From a virus, in IMG/VR virus record IMGVR_UViG_3300021076_000062, positions 1-29,940 of that record: 29,940 nt of DNA; one strand, 5' to 3'. The position numbers were made by a program, and so were the translations under genes. Shown piece after piece: positions 3,237 to 17,310 of the stretch (the first letter of the stretch is position 1; the number at the start of each line of letters is the position of its first letter). The notes under the pieces were generated by a model. It was not told where the DNA came from and did no database searches. It worked only from the letters and a program-made list of their open reading frames with translations.

Positions 3237-3698
3237 CTATTTCTCCCTCGGTGTACTTAAGATATATATTAGCTTACTTTTAATCTTTCGTATATAGGCA
3301 AACTTCTGTGGGTTCTTAATTCTTTTAGCTATTGTAGGACCAGCATTATAACAAACGAGAAAAGTGAGGTCACCTTTATGAACGCATGTTCGTTTAGCAT
3401 CCTGAAGCATTACAAGTCCAAGATAGATGTTATTAACAGGGTCTTCCATCTGTTTCCTGGTATAACCATATCGTTTATACATTTGAGGCATTATCTGGAA
3501 TAAACCCACTTCCCCTTTGCCTCCTATTGCTTTAGGATTCAAATCACTCTCTACGGTAGCAACGGCCACAGCTATCATTGGGTTGATGTTAAACACTGGG
3601 GCCATTGCTATAATCAGACTAGTTATTAAAGCACTTGTCATACTTAAAGAATAGCATGACGGCCATTTAGAGTCAATACCTACAGCTTCCCACACCAT
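3237..3698 (-). CDS. Lytic transglycosylase, SLT family
   Basis: 153 aa. VATVESDLNPKAIG has the catalytic Glu at residue 50, followed by GEVGLFQIMP (62-71) and CYNAGP (116-121), the three signature blocks of Slt70-type goose-lysozyme-fold enzymes that cleave the MurNAc-GlcNAc bond. A hydrophobic stretch at 21-36 looks like a signal anchor, so it probably acts in the periplasm. The chosen ATG has AAGG close upstream and overlaps the phosphoesterase by 19 bases; ATG at 3641 would begin right at the signal sequence but lacks a ribosome binding site. It is encoded away from the M15 endolysin, so it may serve as a second lysin or, if packaged, for entry. Confidence 0.85.
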   Translation of the reverse strand: MVWEAVGIDSKWPSCYSLSMTSALITSLIIAMAPVFNINPMIAVAVATVESDLNPKAIGGKGEVGLFQIMPQMYKRYGYTRKQMEDPVNNIYLGLVMLQDAKRTCVHKGDLTFLVCYNAGPTIAKRIKNPQKFAYIRKIKSKLIYILSTPREK

Positions 3699-9942: not shown

Positions 9943-10404
9943 TTAGAACGTTATACCAACACTACACCCTGCAGTTCCATTATTCAAGCCCCAAATTCCA
10001 ATATTTAAAGGCCCTAAGATATCCTTGCTAATATGTACGCCATATAGCATACCATTTCCTGGATTTGTTACATTAGTGCCGGCTAAAGCACTAATATTTA
10101 ACTTTCCTGTACCCTCAGTAATTGTTTTACTCTCTGCCTTAGTTGCGGTGATTACTGCTGTGTTATCTACATCAGTTTTGTCAGATTCTGTTACTGTTGT
10201 TACTGTAATCTTTTCACCACCGGGCTTTATGTCTTCGGTCTTCTTATACGTCTTTGCTTTAGTGGTATCCTTTACTTTTACTTCTTTAATAACTTCCACT
10301 GTCTTAGTTTCAATCTTGATCTTCTCCGGAGCAGTATAGCGACCTATTGCGGCTGATATTATCACTACTGATACTGCTACTATCACTTTATATTTAGTTG
10401 TCAT
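9943..10404 (-). CDS. Membrane-anchored phage protein with extended Lys/Val stalk, 153 aa
   Basis: Residues 5-22 (YKVIVAVSVVIISAAIGR) form one N-terminal transmembrane helix. Then come an alternating charged/beta or coiled stalk (about 26-75, IKIETKTVEVIKEVKVKD) and a C-terminal Gly-rich hairpin domain ending SKDILGPLNIGIWGLNNGTAG-SVGITF. This three-part design, with a GPxxxGxWG ending, occurs in small phage proteins of unknown role. Start chosen at the ATG one base after the upstream stop; the GTG at 10443 would overlap the collagen gene by 38 bases. Probably inner-membrane with a periplasmic domain; spanin-like function is possible but unproven. Confidence 0.6.
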   Translation of the reverse strand: MTTKYKVIVAVSVVIISAAIGRYTAPEKIKIETKTVEVIKEVKVKDTTKAKTYKKTEDIKPGGEKITVTTVTESDKTDVDNTAVITATKAESKTITEGTGKLNISALAGTNVTNPGNGMLYGVHISKDILGPLNIGIWGLNNGTAGCSVGITF

Positions 10405-10405
10405 C

Positions 10406-10996
10406 TTATTGTACCACACAGTTTGGGAGGACCTGAAAGTCACACTGAAGGCCTGTTGCAGTGCTCATATACTCTCCAGGAACTATCTGAGAAAGCCATG
10501 CATTATGACCATCATAGTATACGCCATATAGCATATTTGAGATGCACAATCCATACTCTGGGAAGTTATTAGGGTAAGAAGTTGGACCTTGATTGCTACA
10601 AAACTGTACTGAATATGTAGCAGTCGGGTTTATACCTGGTGTACCTTGAGGGCCTGTAGCTCCATTGACCCCATCAGTACCATTGGTACCATTCGCTCCG
10701 GTTATCCCTGGTATGCCTTGGGCTCCGGCTACGCCCGCATTACCTTGTATACCGGGGGCGCCTGTAGCTCCTTGAATGCCTTGTGTGCCAGTAGCACCAG
10801 TAGCACCAGTAGCACCAGTAGCACCAGTAGCACCAGTAGCACCAACTGCCCCGTTCGACCCACCTGCGCCGGTAGCCCCAACTGCTCCGCTTGCACCAGC
10901 AGGGCCTTGTGCTCCAGCAGGACCCACAATTTCATGAATGGATGGCTGTTGACCACACCCCCCTAGAACTAAACAAGCTACTAATAATCTTTTCAT
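10406..10996 (-). CDS. Collagen-like lipoprotein
   Basis: 196 aa. N-terminal [14 protein letters not shown] is a lipoprotein signal with the lipidated Cys at 14. Residues 25-123 are 33 uninterrupted Gly-X-Y triplets including six consecutive GAT, many GPA/GPQ/GIP units, hence a collagen triple helix. Residues 124-196 form a C-terminal head with four cysteines (QFCSNQG, GLCISN, LQCDFQ, PNCVVQ) that probably trimerises. Collagen-like segments are common in phage fibres, but here the protein is lipidated and lies in the early operon. That suggests a cell-envelope protein made by the infected host, perhaps for surface masking or superinfection exclusion (inference). ATGA overlap with the Rrf2 gene, ribosome binding site AGGAAT. 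Confidence 0.85.
10791..10844. repeat. Six perfect 9-bp tandem repeats in the collagen gene
   Basis: GTAGCACCA repeated six times head to tail without a single difference, encoding Gly-Ala-Thr on the minus strand. Perfect identity suggests recent expansion or slippage; copy number could vary between isolates without breaking the frame. Confidence 0.95.
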
Positions 10997-11434: not shown

Positions 11435-11824
11435 TTAGTTATCCTTTGTCTTATCGCGCTTAGGGACTTGTTTAATCGCACAGGTGTATTCTACTGGTTG
11501 ATTAGCAAACTCTCTAACCGCTTTAGTAAAAGATAATCCTATTTGCTCTTCTATGTCTTTTCTAGTTTTGATATATTGATCTTTAAGATAAGCATTTAAA
11601 TCTGCATCTTCATACTTTAGGGGTTTATCATTAAGCACATCTTTTATAACCAATCTTACTAGTTCACCGATTAAGAGGGCTGCAGACTTATAATCTAAAG
11701 CAGGTTCATCATTAAGAGGTTTTTCTGGATTAGTAAATAACTTTAGAGTTTCCCTAGCTAATAGTTCAACAATTATGTTCTTACCATATACTACAAGTAG
11801 CTGATCTAAGTCCCGTTCGCTCAT
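11435..11824 (-). CDS. Hypothetical protein, 129 aa
   Basis: Helical, acidic then basic at the C-terminus. Two Leu-rich helices (VELLARETLKLF, SAALLIGELVRLVIKDVL) and a charged C-terminal end with KRDKTKD. No family recognised. ATG overlaps the stop of the preceding membrane peptide and is followed with one base gap by the Rrf2 gene. Confidence 0.6.
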   Translation of the reverse strand: MSERDLDQLLVVYGKNIIVELLARETLKLFTNPEKPLNDEPALDYKSAALLIGELVRLVIKDVLNDKPLKYEDADLNAYLKDQYIKTRKDIEEQIGLSFTKAVREFANQPVEYTCAIKQVPKRDKTKDN

Positions 11825-11967
11825 TTTATCTCCCTTTCAGCGTTAATGATTAGAGCTATTGCATTCACTATGACCATAAATAAAGTTAGATATGAGAATT
11901 CTCCTGCTACAAGAATAACCACACCATATACAAAGAAAAAGGCATTAAATATCAGTATTAGTTTCAT
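11821..11967 (-). CDS. Small two-helix membrane protein, 48 aa
   Basis: Read by hand. First gene of the leftward operon: GAGGGT ribosome binding site, ATG, and a TGA overlapping the next ATG. The product starts MKLILIFNAFFFVYGVVILV and continues through a second hydrophobic helix (LTLFMVIVNAIALII) to a charged AEREIK tail. It would be a helical hairpin in the inner membrane. No family recognised. Confidence 0.65.
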   Translation of the reverse strand: MKLILIFNAFFFVYGVVILVAGEFSYLTLFMVIVNAIALIINAEREIK

Positions 11968-12017: not shown

Positions 12018-12071
12018 AAAAAGAGGCCTAAGCTTATTTGGAGGTAAGAACTTACCAGCTTAGGCCTCTTT
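12018..12071 (-). terminator. Nested long-hairpin terminator between the two transcription units
   Basis: Perfect 15-bp stem AAAGAGGCCTAAGCT/AGCTTAGGCCTCTTT (12020-12034 with 12057-12071). The interior has a second perfect hairpin GGTAAG-AA-CTTACC (12043-12056). On the minus strand the stem is followed by TTTTTCTTT. It terminates leftward transcription just before the leftward promoter; a rightward function is less likely because the plus side lacks a T-run. Confidence 0.72.
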
Positions 12072-12198
12072 GGGGAGGAGGGAGAGTAGATAATCAAAGA
12101 CTACACCCCTACGTCTAAAAAGTCAACAATAAAGTGTAAATATAATTGCCAATAAGGACCTTTGTGGAAGCTACACCATCCATTACAAAATAAAAGAC

Positions 12199-12227
12199 TT
12201 GACAAGCTTTTTGAGCTTTGGTATCAT
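12199..12227 (+). promoter_or_regulatory. Rightward promoter, near consensus
   Basis: TTGACA, 17-bp spacer ending TGG (TGn extension), TATCAT. The transcript would begin about 12234 and pass directly into the GC-rich hairpin island, well before the first rightward gene at 12422. Confidence 0.78.
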
Positions 12228-12252
12228 TAGATTATTAGTAAAGCTCGCTGCT

Positions 12253-12278
12253 GCTCGGCCCTAACGCGCAGGGCCAGC
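12253..12278 (+). other. GC-rich hairpin island, possible small RNA or attenuator
   Basis: GGCCCT/AGGGCC around AACGCGC, extended by GCT/AGC with one bulged C. The surrounding 12243-12310 is conspicuously GC-rich in an AT-rich genome and includes repeated CGCTTCGCTC-like words. It begins just after a near-consensus promoter, and a T-rich stretch follows at 12320-12350. No reading frame explains it. Confidence 0.4.
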
Positions 12279-12370
12279 GCATCCTCGGTTCGCTTCGCTC
12301 ACTCCGGGTCTAACTTAGTACTTTGTTTTATTCTTTAGTTTTAATATAGAGATTTAAATCTTAAAGTCTA

Positions 12371-12682: not shown

Positions 12683-12711
12683 TTGACACACCTTTAATTT
12701 TATGTCATTAT
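12683..12711 (+). promoter_or_regulatory. Promoter of the protease-endolysin cassette
   Basis: TTGACA, 17-bp spacer ending TATGT (TGn extension), CATTAT. Predicted start near 12718, giving a very short leader before AGGAG and the protease ATG at 12729. Confidence 0.65.
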
Positions 12712-12728
12712 AACACTAGGAGATCAAA

Positions 12729-13487
12729 ATGATTAAGACTGTACTTAAAATAAGTATCAAAATGATTGCGATATTGGTTCTAACAAACTTAGCATTAAAC
12801 CTTTTAATAACTCATATTAATACTTCTAATCAGCATTTTGCAAACAACACCGTCTCTGTGATCAATAACCATGGAGGAGGCACGGGAGTTATCCTAAATA
12901 GCAATCCTATATCAAGTTCAGTTCTCACCAATAAGCATGTCTGTCAGCACATCATGTATGGTGGGGTAGTTATGGATGATGGTAATACCCCTTATGCTAT
13001 TCTTAACTTTAGAATGTCTAATATTCATGATCTCTGCCAGATCTGGGTATCAGGAGATCTTCATGGACACACTAACTTAGCTGAATCTGCTCCTCGTCCC
13101 TATGATACTTCGGTTGTAGTTGGGCATCCTTTATTACTTCCTACTACTATTACTACCGGTCATTTTGGACAAAAGGTAATGATCACAGTCAGTGGCGGGT
13201 CTGCATTTCCCGTAGAAGCTCAAGCCGTTAGCAATGTAATCAGCCCCGGGTCTTCCGGTTCTGCAGTCTATAATGACAAAGGAGAGCTATCCGGAATGGT
13301 GTTTGCTGGATCTGGTATGCTAAGCTGGGGAATGATTGTTCCTTATGAATATGTAAAGCTTTTCTTAGAAACTGAGTTGCAAGGGTTAGATGTGCAAGTA
13401 ATAACCGCACCTCCAATACCCGTATTTGACCCACTGGCAGGGTTAGGTGATATTGTTACTAAAAAGAAAGTAAAGCCTTCTCTATGA
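12729..13487 (+). CDS. Membrane-anchored trypsin-like serine protease
   Basis: 252 aa. Residues 10-29 are a transmembrane anchor with a short positively charged start, so the protease domain would face the periplasm. Triad in chymotrypsin-fold order: H70 in VLTNKHV (preceded by GGGTGVIL), D101 in NIHDLCQIWV, and S176 in SPGSSGSAVYNDKGELSGMVFAG, the GxSGx nucleophile loop. HtrA/DegS-like layout without a PDZ domain; a Pro-rich tail follows. Function in the phage is unknown. By position before a micropeptide and the M15 endolysin, processing of an envelope or lysis protein is plausible (inference). Preceded by its own promoter and AGGAG. Confidence 0.82.
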   Translation: MIKTVLKISIKMIAILVLTNLALNLLITHINTSNQHFANNTVSVINNHGGGTGVILNSNPISSSVLTNKHVCQHIMYGGVVMDDGNTPYAILNFRMSNIHDLCQIWVSGDLHGHTNLAESAPRPYDTSVVVGHPLLLPTTITTGHFGQKVMITVSGGSAFPVEAQAVSNVISPGSSGSAVYNDKGELSGMVFAGSGMLSWGMIVPYEYVKLFLETELQGLDVQVITAPPIPVFDPLAGLGDIVTKKKVKPSL

Positions 13488-13570
13488 TAAAGTTGATCAA
13501 TATCAGCTTCTCTATACTGGTTTCAGTTGGTGTTACCCTTCTGCTTAACTTAATAATGGGGTCTAAATGA
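13484..13570 (+). CDS. 28-aa transmembrane micropeptide between protease and endolysin
   Basis: Read by hand. ATG overlaps the protease TGA (ATGA) and its own TGA overlaps the endolysin ATG (ATGA), so it is locked into the cassette. The product is MIKLINISFSILVSVGVTLL, then LNLIMGSK: one transmembrane helix with a basic residue at each end. Small membrane peptides in this position often act as holins or antiholins, but 28 residues is very short. It could also merely couple translation. Confidence 0.55.
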   Translation: MIKLINISFSILVSVGVTLLLNLIMGSK

Positions 13571-13947
13571 TCACTCTTCAAGAATTAAATAGACATGACT
13601 ACCACACTACACCAGAGATTGATGACAATCTTTTAGAGCTTCAAAGAAGGCTTAACATTGTAAGACTTCAGTACAACCAGCCCATGTTGGTGACTAGTGG
13701 TCTTAGATCTGAGTATCAACAACAGCAATTGATAGCAGATGGTAAAAGCACTGCTACAAAAAGTAAGCATTTAACGGGACAAGCAGCCGATATATCCGAT
13801 GATGGTGCTATTAAGCCCTGGGTATTAGCCAATGTCCCTTTAATGGAGGAAGTAGGCCTTTGGATGGAAACATTTGATGCTACTCCAAATTGGGTTCACT
13901 TTCAAACAGTAGCCCCTAATTCAGGAAACAGATTCTTTAACCCTTAG
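13567..13947 (+). CDS. M15-family peptidoglycan peptidase (endolysin)
   Basis: 126 aa. SGLRS (44-48), SKHLTGQAADI (zinc ligands H68 and D75) and NWVHFQ (H111) form the M15A/VanY-type zinc site seen in L-alanyl-D-glutamate endopeptidases and D,D-carboxypeptidases of phages. No signal peptide, so it needs a holin-like route to the periplasm, which makes the coupled micropeptide upstream interesting. Complements the SLT transglycosylase of the other arm, cutting peptide rather than glycan bonds. Confidence 0.88.
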   Translation: MITLQELNRHDYHTTPEIDDNLLELQRRLNIVRLQYNQPMLVTSGLRSEYQQQQLIADGKSTATKSKHLTGQAADISDDGAIKPWVLANVPLMEEVGLWMETFDATPNWVHFQTVAPNSGNRFFNP

Positions 13948-15560: not shown

Positions 15561-15862
15561 TGTCAAAGATTTGGGCAGATAATAAACGTACGGTCGTCAT
15601 CAAGGAGATAGTGGAAGTTCCCACTATCAAAGAAGAAGGCTTAACTACGGATATTGACTCCCTACTTAATCAAGGTCTCAAGAATATATCACGGATGATG
15701 AATGTAATCAGCACACAAGCTGGTCTTGAGACCTTTGACAGGTCCACAGTGCAGAACCTAAAAGACTTAATGGCAATGTTGGGTGATCTTAAACAGAAAG
15801 AGACAGATCTTTTAGCTGAAATGTCAGATGAAGAACTTCTTTCAAGGATAACCAAAGAATGA
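15560..15862 (+). CDS. Hypothetical protein, candidate terminase small subunit, 100 aa
   Basis: Helical: DIDSLLNQGLKNISRMMNVIS, STVQNLKDLMAMLGDLKQKETDLLAEMSDEELLSRI. No clear HTH. It sits directly before the large terminase with an ATGA overlap, the usual place of TerS, and is of plausible size, but the fold cannot be recognised, and the HTH gene at 14305 is an alternative candidate. Confidence 0.5.
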   Translation: MSKIWADNKRTVVIKEIVEVPTIKEEGLTTDIDSLLNQGLKNISRMMNVISTQAGLETFDRSTVQNLKDLMAMLGDLKQKETDLLAEMSDEELLSRITKE

Positions 15863-17310
15863 GTGTTCTTAATATCAAAGCAGTCAAACGAGCGCTTAGT
15901 CGTCGTAAGAAAGTTGCTGATGAGAATAAGCAGTTCAGGCTTGAAGGCCATTTGTTCAAAGAACAGCTAGCTTTTGTCATGGACCCATCGCCTAATAAAG
16001 TAGCGGTATGTTCTAGAAGAGCAGGAAAGACCACAGCTTGTGCCGCTGATCTGGTATATACCGCGATTAACAGCCCAGGTACGGTATGTCTCTATATTAC
16101 ACTTAGCAGAAACAATGCTAAGAAGATTATATGGAAAGAGATTAAAGATTTAAATAGAGATTACAAACTAAACGGTGTCTTGAGCATAGCAGAACTATCT
16201 ATAACATTTCCAAATGCATCTACCATCTACCTATCCGGTGCCAAAGATGAGACCGAGATTGAGAAGTTCCGTGGTCTTGCCCTTAAACTAGTTTACATCG
16301 ATGAGTGCCAATCTTTTCGTTCTTATATCAAAGAGCTTATCAATGAAGTACTTGCACCAAGCCTAATGGATTATGCCGGTACTTTGAATATCATTGGAAC
16401 ACCATCCCCTCTTCCTACAGGCTTCTTTCACGATGCTTACATCTCAGACAATGGATGGGCTAAGTTTCACTGGACCTTTTGGGATAACCCTTTTATCATT
16501 CAAAAGTCTAAAGTAACTCATCAACAGATGCTAGACAGAGAGCTTAAGCGACGCGGTGTTCCTGCTTCAGACCCTTCAGTACAGAGGGAGTGGTTTGGGC
16601 GCTTCACGCTGGATTCAAATTCATTGTTATTACATTACAATCCTCAACTTAATCACTTTGATGCAATGCCTGCAATCAGCCCTAAGCGGCTCAACTATAT
16701 AATGGGCATCGATTTGGGGTTCGATGACGCTGATGCCATCGCGGTGTTAGCCTGGTCTGAGGATACTGCTGCAACTTACCTAGTTGAAGAATTAGTTGTG
16801 AGGCAACAAGGATTAACTGAGTTGGTTGAACAAATTGAACTTTTACGCAAGAAGTATGATATCACTAAGATAATGATTGATCAAGGTGGTCTTGGTAAGA
16901 AACTAGCTGAGGAAATGAGGCGTCGTCATGGCATACCTGTACAAGCTGCAGATAAAGCTCGTAAGATGGAGCACATTGCATTTCTTAACGATGCTCTCCG
17001 CACTGGACGATTCAAAGCTAAAACTGATTCTAAGTTTGCACAAGATTCTTATCTAGTTGAAATTGATAGAGATAAGTCTACACCGGATAGAATTAAAGTA
17101 TCCTCAGCCTACCACTCAGATATAATCGATGCGGTGTTATACGCTTTCGTAGAATCCCCAGCATTTACATATACTCCCCCAGTTGCAAAGCCTAAATGGG
17201 GCACCCAAGCCTGGGCTGATGCTCAAAACGATGAGATGTTTCAAGCTGAGCTTGAGGGCATCACCAAAGAATACGAGCAGCTAAAAGATCCATATGCTGA
17301 TAATTACTAA
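15859..17310 (+). CDS. terL: Terminase large subunit (packaging ATPase/nuclease)
   Basis: 483 aa. Walker A CSRRAGKTT (51-59), Walker B LVYIDE (144-149), coupling motif IIGTPS (178-183), then the RNase H-like nuclease with GIDLGFDDADA (283-293), IMIDQGG (D341) and DIIDAVLYAF (421-430) carrying the metal-binding acids. It pumps DNA into the prohead through the portal and cuts concatemers. Full-length for the family. The C-terminal 50 residues are acidic. Confidence 0.95.
   Translation: MSVLNIKAVKRALSRRKKVADENKQFRLEGHLFKEQLAFVMDPSPNKVAVCSRRAGKTTACAADLVYTAINSPGTVCLYITLSRNNAKKIIWKEIKDLNRDYKLNGVLSIAELSITFPNASTIYLSGAKDETEIEKFRGLALKLVYIDECQSFRSYIKELINEVLAPSLMDYAGTLNIIGTPSPLPTGFFHDAYISDNGWAKFHWTFWDNPFIIQKSKVTHQQMLDRELKRRGVPASDPSVQREWFGRFTLDSNSLLLHYNPQLNHFDAMPAISPKRLNYIMGIDLGFDDADAIAVLAWSEDTAATYLVEELVVRQQGLTELVEQIELLRKKYDITKIMIDQGGLGKKLAEEMRRRHGIPVQAADKARKMEHIAFLNDALRTGRFKAKTDSKFAQDSYLVEIDRDKSTPDRIKVSSAYHSDIIDAVLYAFVESPAFTYTPPVAKPKWGTQAWADAQNDEMFQAELEGITKEYEQLKDPYADNY

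Follow-up and report, generated by a model that had tools for sequence, protein, structure and literature searches.

Parts of several described systems resemble the locus analysed here. One is DegS, a member of the HtrA family (MEROPS S1C). Another is the gene order of phage T7, in which holin, TerS, Rz/Rz1, and the terminase large subunit (TerL) follow each other, Rz/Rz1 thus lying between TerS and TerL. A survey of spanins identified none in 91 of 677 phage genomes; passages of it discuss membrane-active endolysins and unusual anchors, and the word "protease" is absent from its main text (PMC6139136). The protease candidate described below bears on the question of how the outer membrane is opened by phages in which no spanin can be identified. 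As regards the endolysin, ChiX from Serratia is described as having no obvious signal and as relying on the holin ChiW; a chiW mutant was rescued when a signal peptide was attached to ChiX (PMC5778951). Among the matches listed in a search of the PMC literature, there was no described counterpart, in the context of lysis, of a protease that is encoded by a phage and is periplasmic, trypsin-like or of the HtrA type. This agrees with the first-pass annotation of the present DNA, the author of which knew of no such described system.

The window, that is, the whole stretch of DNA analysed, is a virus record of 29,940 bases (IMG/VR IMGVR_UViG_3300021076_000062). Its left part carries minus-strand genes, including homologues of SbcC, SbcD, and UvsX, and a plus-strand block, which starts at 12.4 kb, includes the genes for TerL (15859..17310; phrog_2, 1e-38), the portal, and the major head protein. 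The intergenic stretch between the oppositely transcribed halves (12019-12310) seems, on visual inspection, to contain a patch rich in G+C and an inverted repeat of considerable length; it gave no match in Rfam, the search of which returned one tRNA only. At the start of the plus-strand block, ahead of the DNA-packaging genes, lie three ORFs encoding a protease of 252 aa (12729..13487), a membrane micropeptide of 28 aa (13484..13570), and an M15-type peptidoglycan peptidase of 126 aa (13567..13947). They had been annotated as one locked cassette, joined by ATGA overlaps and served by a promoter of its own. The coordinates, the plus strand, and both 4-nt overlaps were confirmed. Because the same overlap is found in 14 of the 56 co-directional gene pairs of the window, however, it carries little information. 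That the cassette is closed was not borne out, as the next gene begins 8 nt after the end of the M15 ORF and no terminator-like site was found between the two. The separate promoter fared no better: the hexamers upstream of the protease gene (TTGACA-17-CATTAT; 12683..12711, plus strand) match at 10 of 12 positions, and the region contains 13 promoter-like sites versus 9.1 ± 2.9 in shuffled sequences, which is no clear excess. A simple scan revealed no Shine-Dalgarno-like motif before the peptide or the M15 ORF; their translation would, therefore, have to be coupled. The reading preferred here, to which we give slightly less than an even chance, is that of a late envelope-attack locus, where the protease aids lysis or envelope breakdown beside a cytoplasmic endolysin and a holin-like peptide. 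Its observed basis comprises domains, fold, residues, a hydrophobic anchor, overlaps, gene order, and recurrence near TerL or spanin-like genes.

The protease matched Trypsin_2 (PF13365) with 40.3 bits, compared with a cut-off of 27.6 (E 6.6e-10). Its AlphaFold model, derived from 14 sequences (pLDDT 84), consists of a long N-terminal helix (residues 2-38) followed by a trypsin fold, and residues 221-252 form a tail of low confidence. Foldseek assigned the model to the DegP/DegS group (best E 2.5e-10), and VIA-align matched it to DegP, DegS, Rv0983, and HtrA1 with Z 22-25 over 174-196 residues. The best sequence match in the PDB was DegS (2.6e-5), the His, Asp, and Ser of which align with H70, D101, and S176. 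This triad is invariant in all 15 distinct aligned sequences (window and G009 homologue included). Together with the Trypsin_2 match and the DegS alignment, this conservation upholds the annotation as a trypsin-like protease with a full triad. Two residues past the catalytic His and Asp, the same 15 sequences invariably contain cysteine (C72 and C103), whereas the sequence alignment places Ile and Ala at these positions in DegS. In total, 11 positions are invariant in the 14-sequence protease alignment. As most relatives had been fetched with patterns covering the T-N-K-H-V-C (H-V-C) or D-L-C motifs, the invariance of H-V-C and D-L-C is partly built in; yet, the homologues in L006/L026, L008/L013, and G009, which were first found without motif patterns, keep the triad and both cysteines.

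Hydropathy analysis of the protease revealed a single hydrophobic segment at the N-terminus (residues 8-26), within a predicted signal anchor that comprises residues 1-32 (12729..12824, plus strand) and has a positively charged N-terminus. A hydrophobic segment was predicted in 10 of the 58 window genes scanned. All 14 distinct protease sequences scored, the window's included, have such an N-terminal segment; that of one homologue (L025:4829-5539) ends in a lipobox-like LAGC. A membrane anchor of the DegS type is, thus, present by prediction. The presence of two conserved cysteines in a predicted exported domain suggests a disulfide, and anchor and cysteine pair together indicate that the catalytic domain most likely faces the periplasm, as had been annotated. 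The layout of a spanin, that is, a non-enzymatic lipoprotein or transmembrane (TM) protein with a coiled coil, was not found; instead, the domain is that of an HtrA-type protease. Among the seven Pfam families listed for the protein at E up to 1, no PDZ domain was found.

These features also form the basis of the chief rival to envelope attack, according to which the phage protein is a DegS mimic. By cutting an RseA-like anti-sigma factor of the host, it would elicit the envelope stress response, keeping the cell intact during virion production. The protease has the layout of DegS minus the PDZ domain, which is described in a review as the sensing and inhibitory part of that enzyme (PMC6737893); furthermore, DegS is its best sequence match in the PDB, and DegS-deltaPDZ structures are among its best fold matches. 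However, identity to DegS is only ∼22%, other HtrA proteases match equally, and the position beside endolysin and TerL fits a role at the end of the infection cycle at least equally well, which leaves action on a stress regulator unlikely.

Surface shaving or superinfection exclusion is another task that a protease facing the periplasm and lacking a known partner could perform, by stripping receptors or parts of incoming phage and so sparing the progeny from re-adsorption. The window contains a possible second surface gene (10406-10996, minus strand), the product of which has a lipoprotein-like N-terminus (GGCG) and a long collagen-like Gly-X-Y repeat; this gene overlaps that of an Rrf2-type regulator. 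As a tether to the inner membrane would keep the catalytic domain well away from receptors on the surface, and as the gene is linked to packaging and lysis-like genes, we rate surface shaving as improbable, on a par with the DegS mimic. To the same low degree, the protein may be a spare DegP/DegS-like protease for envelope quality control, clearing misfolded phage or host membrane proteins late in infection with no direct role in lysis. HtrA proteases have a housekeeping role, and the fold is of this type, but no PDZ domain was found for substrate recognition, and the repeated position near TerL or spanin-like genes suggests a more specific role.

This position was established by comparing the gene neighbourhoods of protease relatives. 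The pattern scan for the protease gave 16 loci, two of which belong to the window's own phage. L016/L017 and L021/L022, each of which represents a single phage or two nearly identical ones, were counted once each; L008/L013 was reached through M15, and G009 by searching M15 records. Counting each phage once, and including the window, 15 lineages resulted. TerL is the commonest neighbour of the protease homologues and lies within 2.5 kb in 8 of the 15 lineages (the window, with a distance of 2.4 kb, L018, L019, L020, L021/L022, L023, L024, and G009). In L014 and L015, the two genes are tens of kilobases apart, in L027 ∼6.6 kb, and no TerL match was found in L016/L017, L025, L026, and L013. The nearest structural relative of the window (L021/L068), the TerL, portal, and major head protein of which are 41%, 36%, and 37% identical, has the protease gene just upstream of that for TerL. 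TerL and portal are also common to the window and L018-L020, at 21-26% identity; because L018-L021 are related to the window by these two proteins, the linkage to TerL partly reflects common descent. The gene order in L018 and L019 is small TM protein, HTH protein, protease, and TerL (in L018, the HTH protein has weak matches only and the membrane protein none), and in L020, the protease is followed by TerL at the end of the contig.

In L014 and L015, the proteases of which are most similar to that of the window (39% and 38% identity), the gene is part of a run encoding small proteins predicted to be exported. Next comes a gene for a small TM and coiled-coil protein, which adjoins the protease gene in L015 and is separated from it by one overlapping 70-aa TM ORF in L014. 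Its product matches the Rz-like spanin phrog_739 of PHROGs (1.7e-5 in L014 and 5.0e-5 in L015), although TM and coiled-coil proteins can score there by composition, and lipoprotein-like genes (lipobox identified by eye) lie beyond it. Since L014 and L015 seem to have the protease and spanin-like genes together, the former need not replace spanins. Elsewhere, the protease gene lies beside one resembling a DNA polymerase by eye (L016/L017) or has neighbours other than TerL or spanin-like genes (L025 and L027). In L013 (G003) and L026 (G001), it is directly preceded by the gene for a TM protein homologous to that encoded outside the trio at 9943..10404 on the minus strand of the window. A single hydrophobic segment at the N-terminus of this protein is followed by a charged linker and by a C-terminus that is rich in Gly and has an aromatic end (VGITF); its homologues in L013, L026, and L059 end alike, in F or W. 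It could bridge the inner and outer membrane.

A further viral scan with a larger protease alignment yielded no new record. Among 50,697 records of cultured phages, tblastn found no match to the window protease at E 0.1, nor any to three of five relatives used as queries. For the remaining two, the matches were to different serine proteases (best E 2e-6, mostly <33% identity) in records that are unannotated, or that are or look bacterial, with one annotated as "serine protease" in a Staphylococcus phage record; one match, MW462191, has bacterial-type neighbours. In a genome collection of 84,980 species, neither the protease (4 pattern matches) nor M15 (48 pattern matches) had a confirmed relative, an absence that carries little weight because the patterns were strict. 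Phage-borne HtrA-like proteases as such are not new, since phrog_9683, named "protease," matches the window protein (1.2e-6) and phage proteins bearing the name HtrA or periplasmic serine protease are among the best matches in BFVD.

With TerL no more than 2.5 kb away in 8 of 15 lineages, the enzyme could be judged, from its place by TerL and portal, to be a capsid maturation protease that is only incidentally anchored in the membrane. Anchor and conserved cysteines point to the periplasm, though, and the fold is that of HtrA, not of a prohead protease family, so that a role in capsid maturation is very improbable. For envelope attack, the shared ancestry behind part of the TerL linkage and the seven lineages in which TerL is not nearby weigh on the negative side. 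The recurrence of the protease by packaging or lysis-like genes hints at a proteolytic step in opening the host; a recurrent phage protease in this region that is predicted to face the periplasm constitutes a concrete candidate for opening of the outer membrane.

The M15 ORF matched Peptidase_M15_3 (PF08291; 4.2e-8, above the Pfam cut-off) and the PHROG endolysin (9.1e-11). Its structural model (pLDDT 92.8) had ChiX as its best Foldseek match (E 2.0e-5, TM 0.56), which was the sole PDB match with E <0.001; the phage L-Ala-D-Glu peptidases LysECD7 and RB49 (both 1.2e-3) and Ply500 (2.3e-3) came next. In a profile search, LysECD7 (5.2e-5) and ChiX (7.3e-5) ranked first. The modelled fold is of the LAS type, like that of ChiX, Ply500, and the T5 endolysin, and the enzyme is probably an L-Ala-D-Glu endopeptidase, despite the fact that the Zn DD-peptidase 1LBU fits with a higher TM-score than ChiX (0.64; its E, 1.5e-2, is weaker). 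H68, D75, and H111, which are presumably the His/Asp/His zinc ligands, are invariant in 31 of 31 aligned rows, where the window protein is present twice and where H111 falls in the motif used for the M15 scan. As hydropathy analysis revealed neither a hydrophobic segment nor a signal, the M15 enzyme needs an export route. This had already been concluded in the first-pass annotation and is in line with the dependence of its best structural match, ChiX, on a holin partner. A possible second lytic enzyme, an SLT transglycosylase (2.4e-19) with a weakly hydrophobic N-terminus, is encoded at 3237-3635 on the minus strand.

The ORF for the 28-aa peptide, which overlaps that for M15 by 4 nt, encodes a single hydrophobic helix, and hydropathy confirmed the one segment that had been annotated. 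Among open 28-codon stretches starting with ATG in non-coding frames of the window, 3 of 158 were about as hydrophobic. Considering, in addition, its exact fit between two ATGA junctions, the ORF is unlikely to have arisen by chance. The polar residues N6, S10, S14, T18, and N22 follow each other at a spacing of four. A permutation test for this stripe, designed after the peptide had been seen, resulted in p = 0.001, a looser version in p = 0.027, and the hydrophobic moment in p = 0.048. The peptide matched no family in Pfam and, in PHROGs, only weakly phrog_36503 of unknown function (E 0.019), a query of 28 aa having little power. It is known from one phage species, as three identical copies (window, L002, and L003). 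The notion that it is a copy of the protease's N-terminal helix was rejected because equally high scores were reached by 1709 of 5000 shuffled sequences and by 22 of 363 membrane ORFs without relation to it.

From its sequence, it is plausible that the peptide is pore-forming or holin-like. Its proposal as a holin candidate stands insofar as it is a small membrane protein beside an endolysin and small membrane ORFs are enriched upstream of M15; it gains nothing from known holin families, none of which matched. For the enrichment, the 33 M15 loci were reduced to 28 by dropping the second record of the window's own phage and four duplicates; the window's phage is still counted among the 28. M15 was immediately preceded by a small membrane ORF at 6 of 27 loci without the window (7 of 28 with it), compared with 12 of 247 control ORFs (p = 0.004); at a stricter hydropathy threshold, the numbers were 5 of 27 versus 11 of 247 (p = 0.013). 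As judged by eye, these ORFs differ in sequence from locus to locus. Directly downstream of the protease, small membrane ORFs were not enriched (1 of 12 without the window versus 3 of 83). All of these neighbour statistics use mechanical ORFs and related loci. Other small membrane ORFs of the window rival the peptide as holin candidates, the foremost being a 48-aa ORF in a minus-strand operon (11821-11967), which has two hydrophobic segments in a holin-like layout. Should the 28-aa peptide prove to be lytic, it would probe how small a holin can be.

Whether the trio forms a locked unit was assessed from relatives. Leaving fragments of the window's own phage uncounted, the protease was found in 3 of 31 M15 records, and 5 of 15 protease records contained M15. 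Apart from the window, both are present in six records (G001, G003, G041, G042, G009, and G033), and in none of the six are they adjacent. The two genes are ∼1.4 kb (G001) and ∼0.8 kb (G003) apart, on opposite strands; ∼2.4 kb apart in G041 and G042, where a 100-aa membrane ORF, another ORF, and TerL lie between them; and separated by ∼14 kb in G009 and ∼47 kb in G033. Inspection of the intervening stretches in G001, G003, G041, and G042 revealed no micropeptide joining the two. The nearest structural relative (L021/L022) has no M15 in its fragments of 17.9 and 11.1 kb, and no comparable peptide beside the protease. Because the records are fragments, such absences are soft. Recurrence is, thus, seen for the protease in the vicinity of TerL or spanin-like genes and not for the set of three genes. 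The claim of a locked unit has to be given up, the more so as the first-pass annotation had itself named loss of the micropeptide from relatives that keep its neighbours as evidence to the contrary. Small one-helix ORFs with a 4-nt overlap also occur at other places, namely 2.7 kb upstream of the L021 protease (L021:740-838, 32 aa, overlapping the next gene) and directly downstream of M15 in L059 (L059:3232-3363, 43 aa). The model first put forward, in which cleavage of the micropeptide by the protease would trigger or pace lysis, draws on gene order and overlaps only and is highly improbable, given that a single helix of 28 residues exposes almost nothing to cut and that no such peptide was seen between protease and M15 in the other records inspected.

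In a late envelope attack, the N-terminal helix would place the protease in the inner membrane, with its HtrA-type catalytic domain in the periplasm and, in the predicted absence of a PDZ domain, free of the usual HtrA switch. There, it would cut envelope proteins, candidates being proteins that tie the outer membrane to the cell wall, or outer-membrane proteins, and so weaken the envelope when infection ends, either together with spanins or as a substitute for them. M15 would be the cytoplasmic endolysin, cutting the wall once let out by the peptide or another holin, and the 28-aa peptide, as a minimal holin, may aid the passage of M15 or the collapse of the membrane. Export, late expression, and substrate of the protease, as well as a role of protease and peptide in lysis, are what we infer here; the restriction of the peptide to three identical copies in one phage species speaks against its part in envelope attack. 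A bolder version is doubtful, namely, that a family of uncultivated phages uses a membrane-tethered, PDZ-less, DegS-like protease with a cysteine pair of its own as a lysis protein, sometimes in the spanin slot of T7 and here with a 28-residue holin that would be among the smallest.

Compared with the known systems, the window protease shares with DegS an N-terminal membrane anchor (predicted here), the HtrA trypsin fold, and the His/Asp/Ser triad. It differs from DegS in being phage-encoded, in that no PDZ domain was found, in its cysteine pair at H+2/D+2 (Ile and Ala in DegS), and in an identity of ∼22%. The ChiWXYZ operon of Serratia is not known to include a protease. This phage-derived lysis cassette, which is used for secretion, resembles the window in that a signal-less M15 enzyme is encoded next to a gene for a membrane protein; ChiW, however, has three predicted membrane helices according to its description, whereas the window peptide has one (PMC5778951). 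ChiX itself is an M15 L-Ala-D-Glu endopeptidase and the best fold match of the window M15. As for the peptide, the releasin gp25 of phage Mu is described as a membrane protein of non-classical type, which has one helix and aids an endolysin in reaching the periplasm; this is the likeness to our candidate. Of the 99 aa of gp25, some form a cytoplasmic domain, and its partner is a SAR endolysin, whereas the window combines a peptide of 28 aa, lacking a domain, with a signal-less M15 (PMC9239132). In L018 and L019, as in T7, the stretch that separates a small TM gene or TerS from TerL contains an envelope gene; the protease occupies the spanin position of T7 but is an enzyme rather than a spanin. 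Unlike in the T7 block, protease and TerL of the window are separated by the peptide, M15, and several further genes. What is new here, relative to these systems, is the family signature, the anchoring without a PDZ domain, and the place beside packaging or lysis-like genes.
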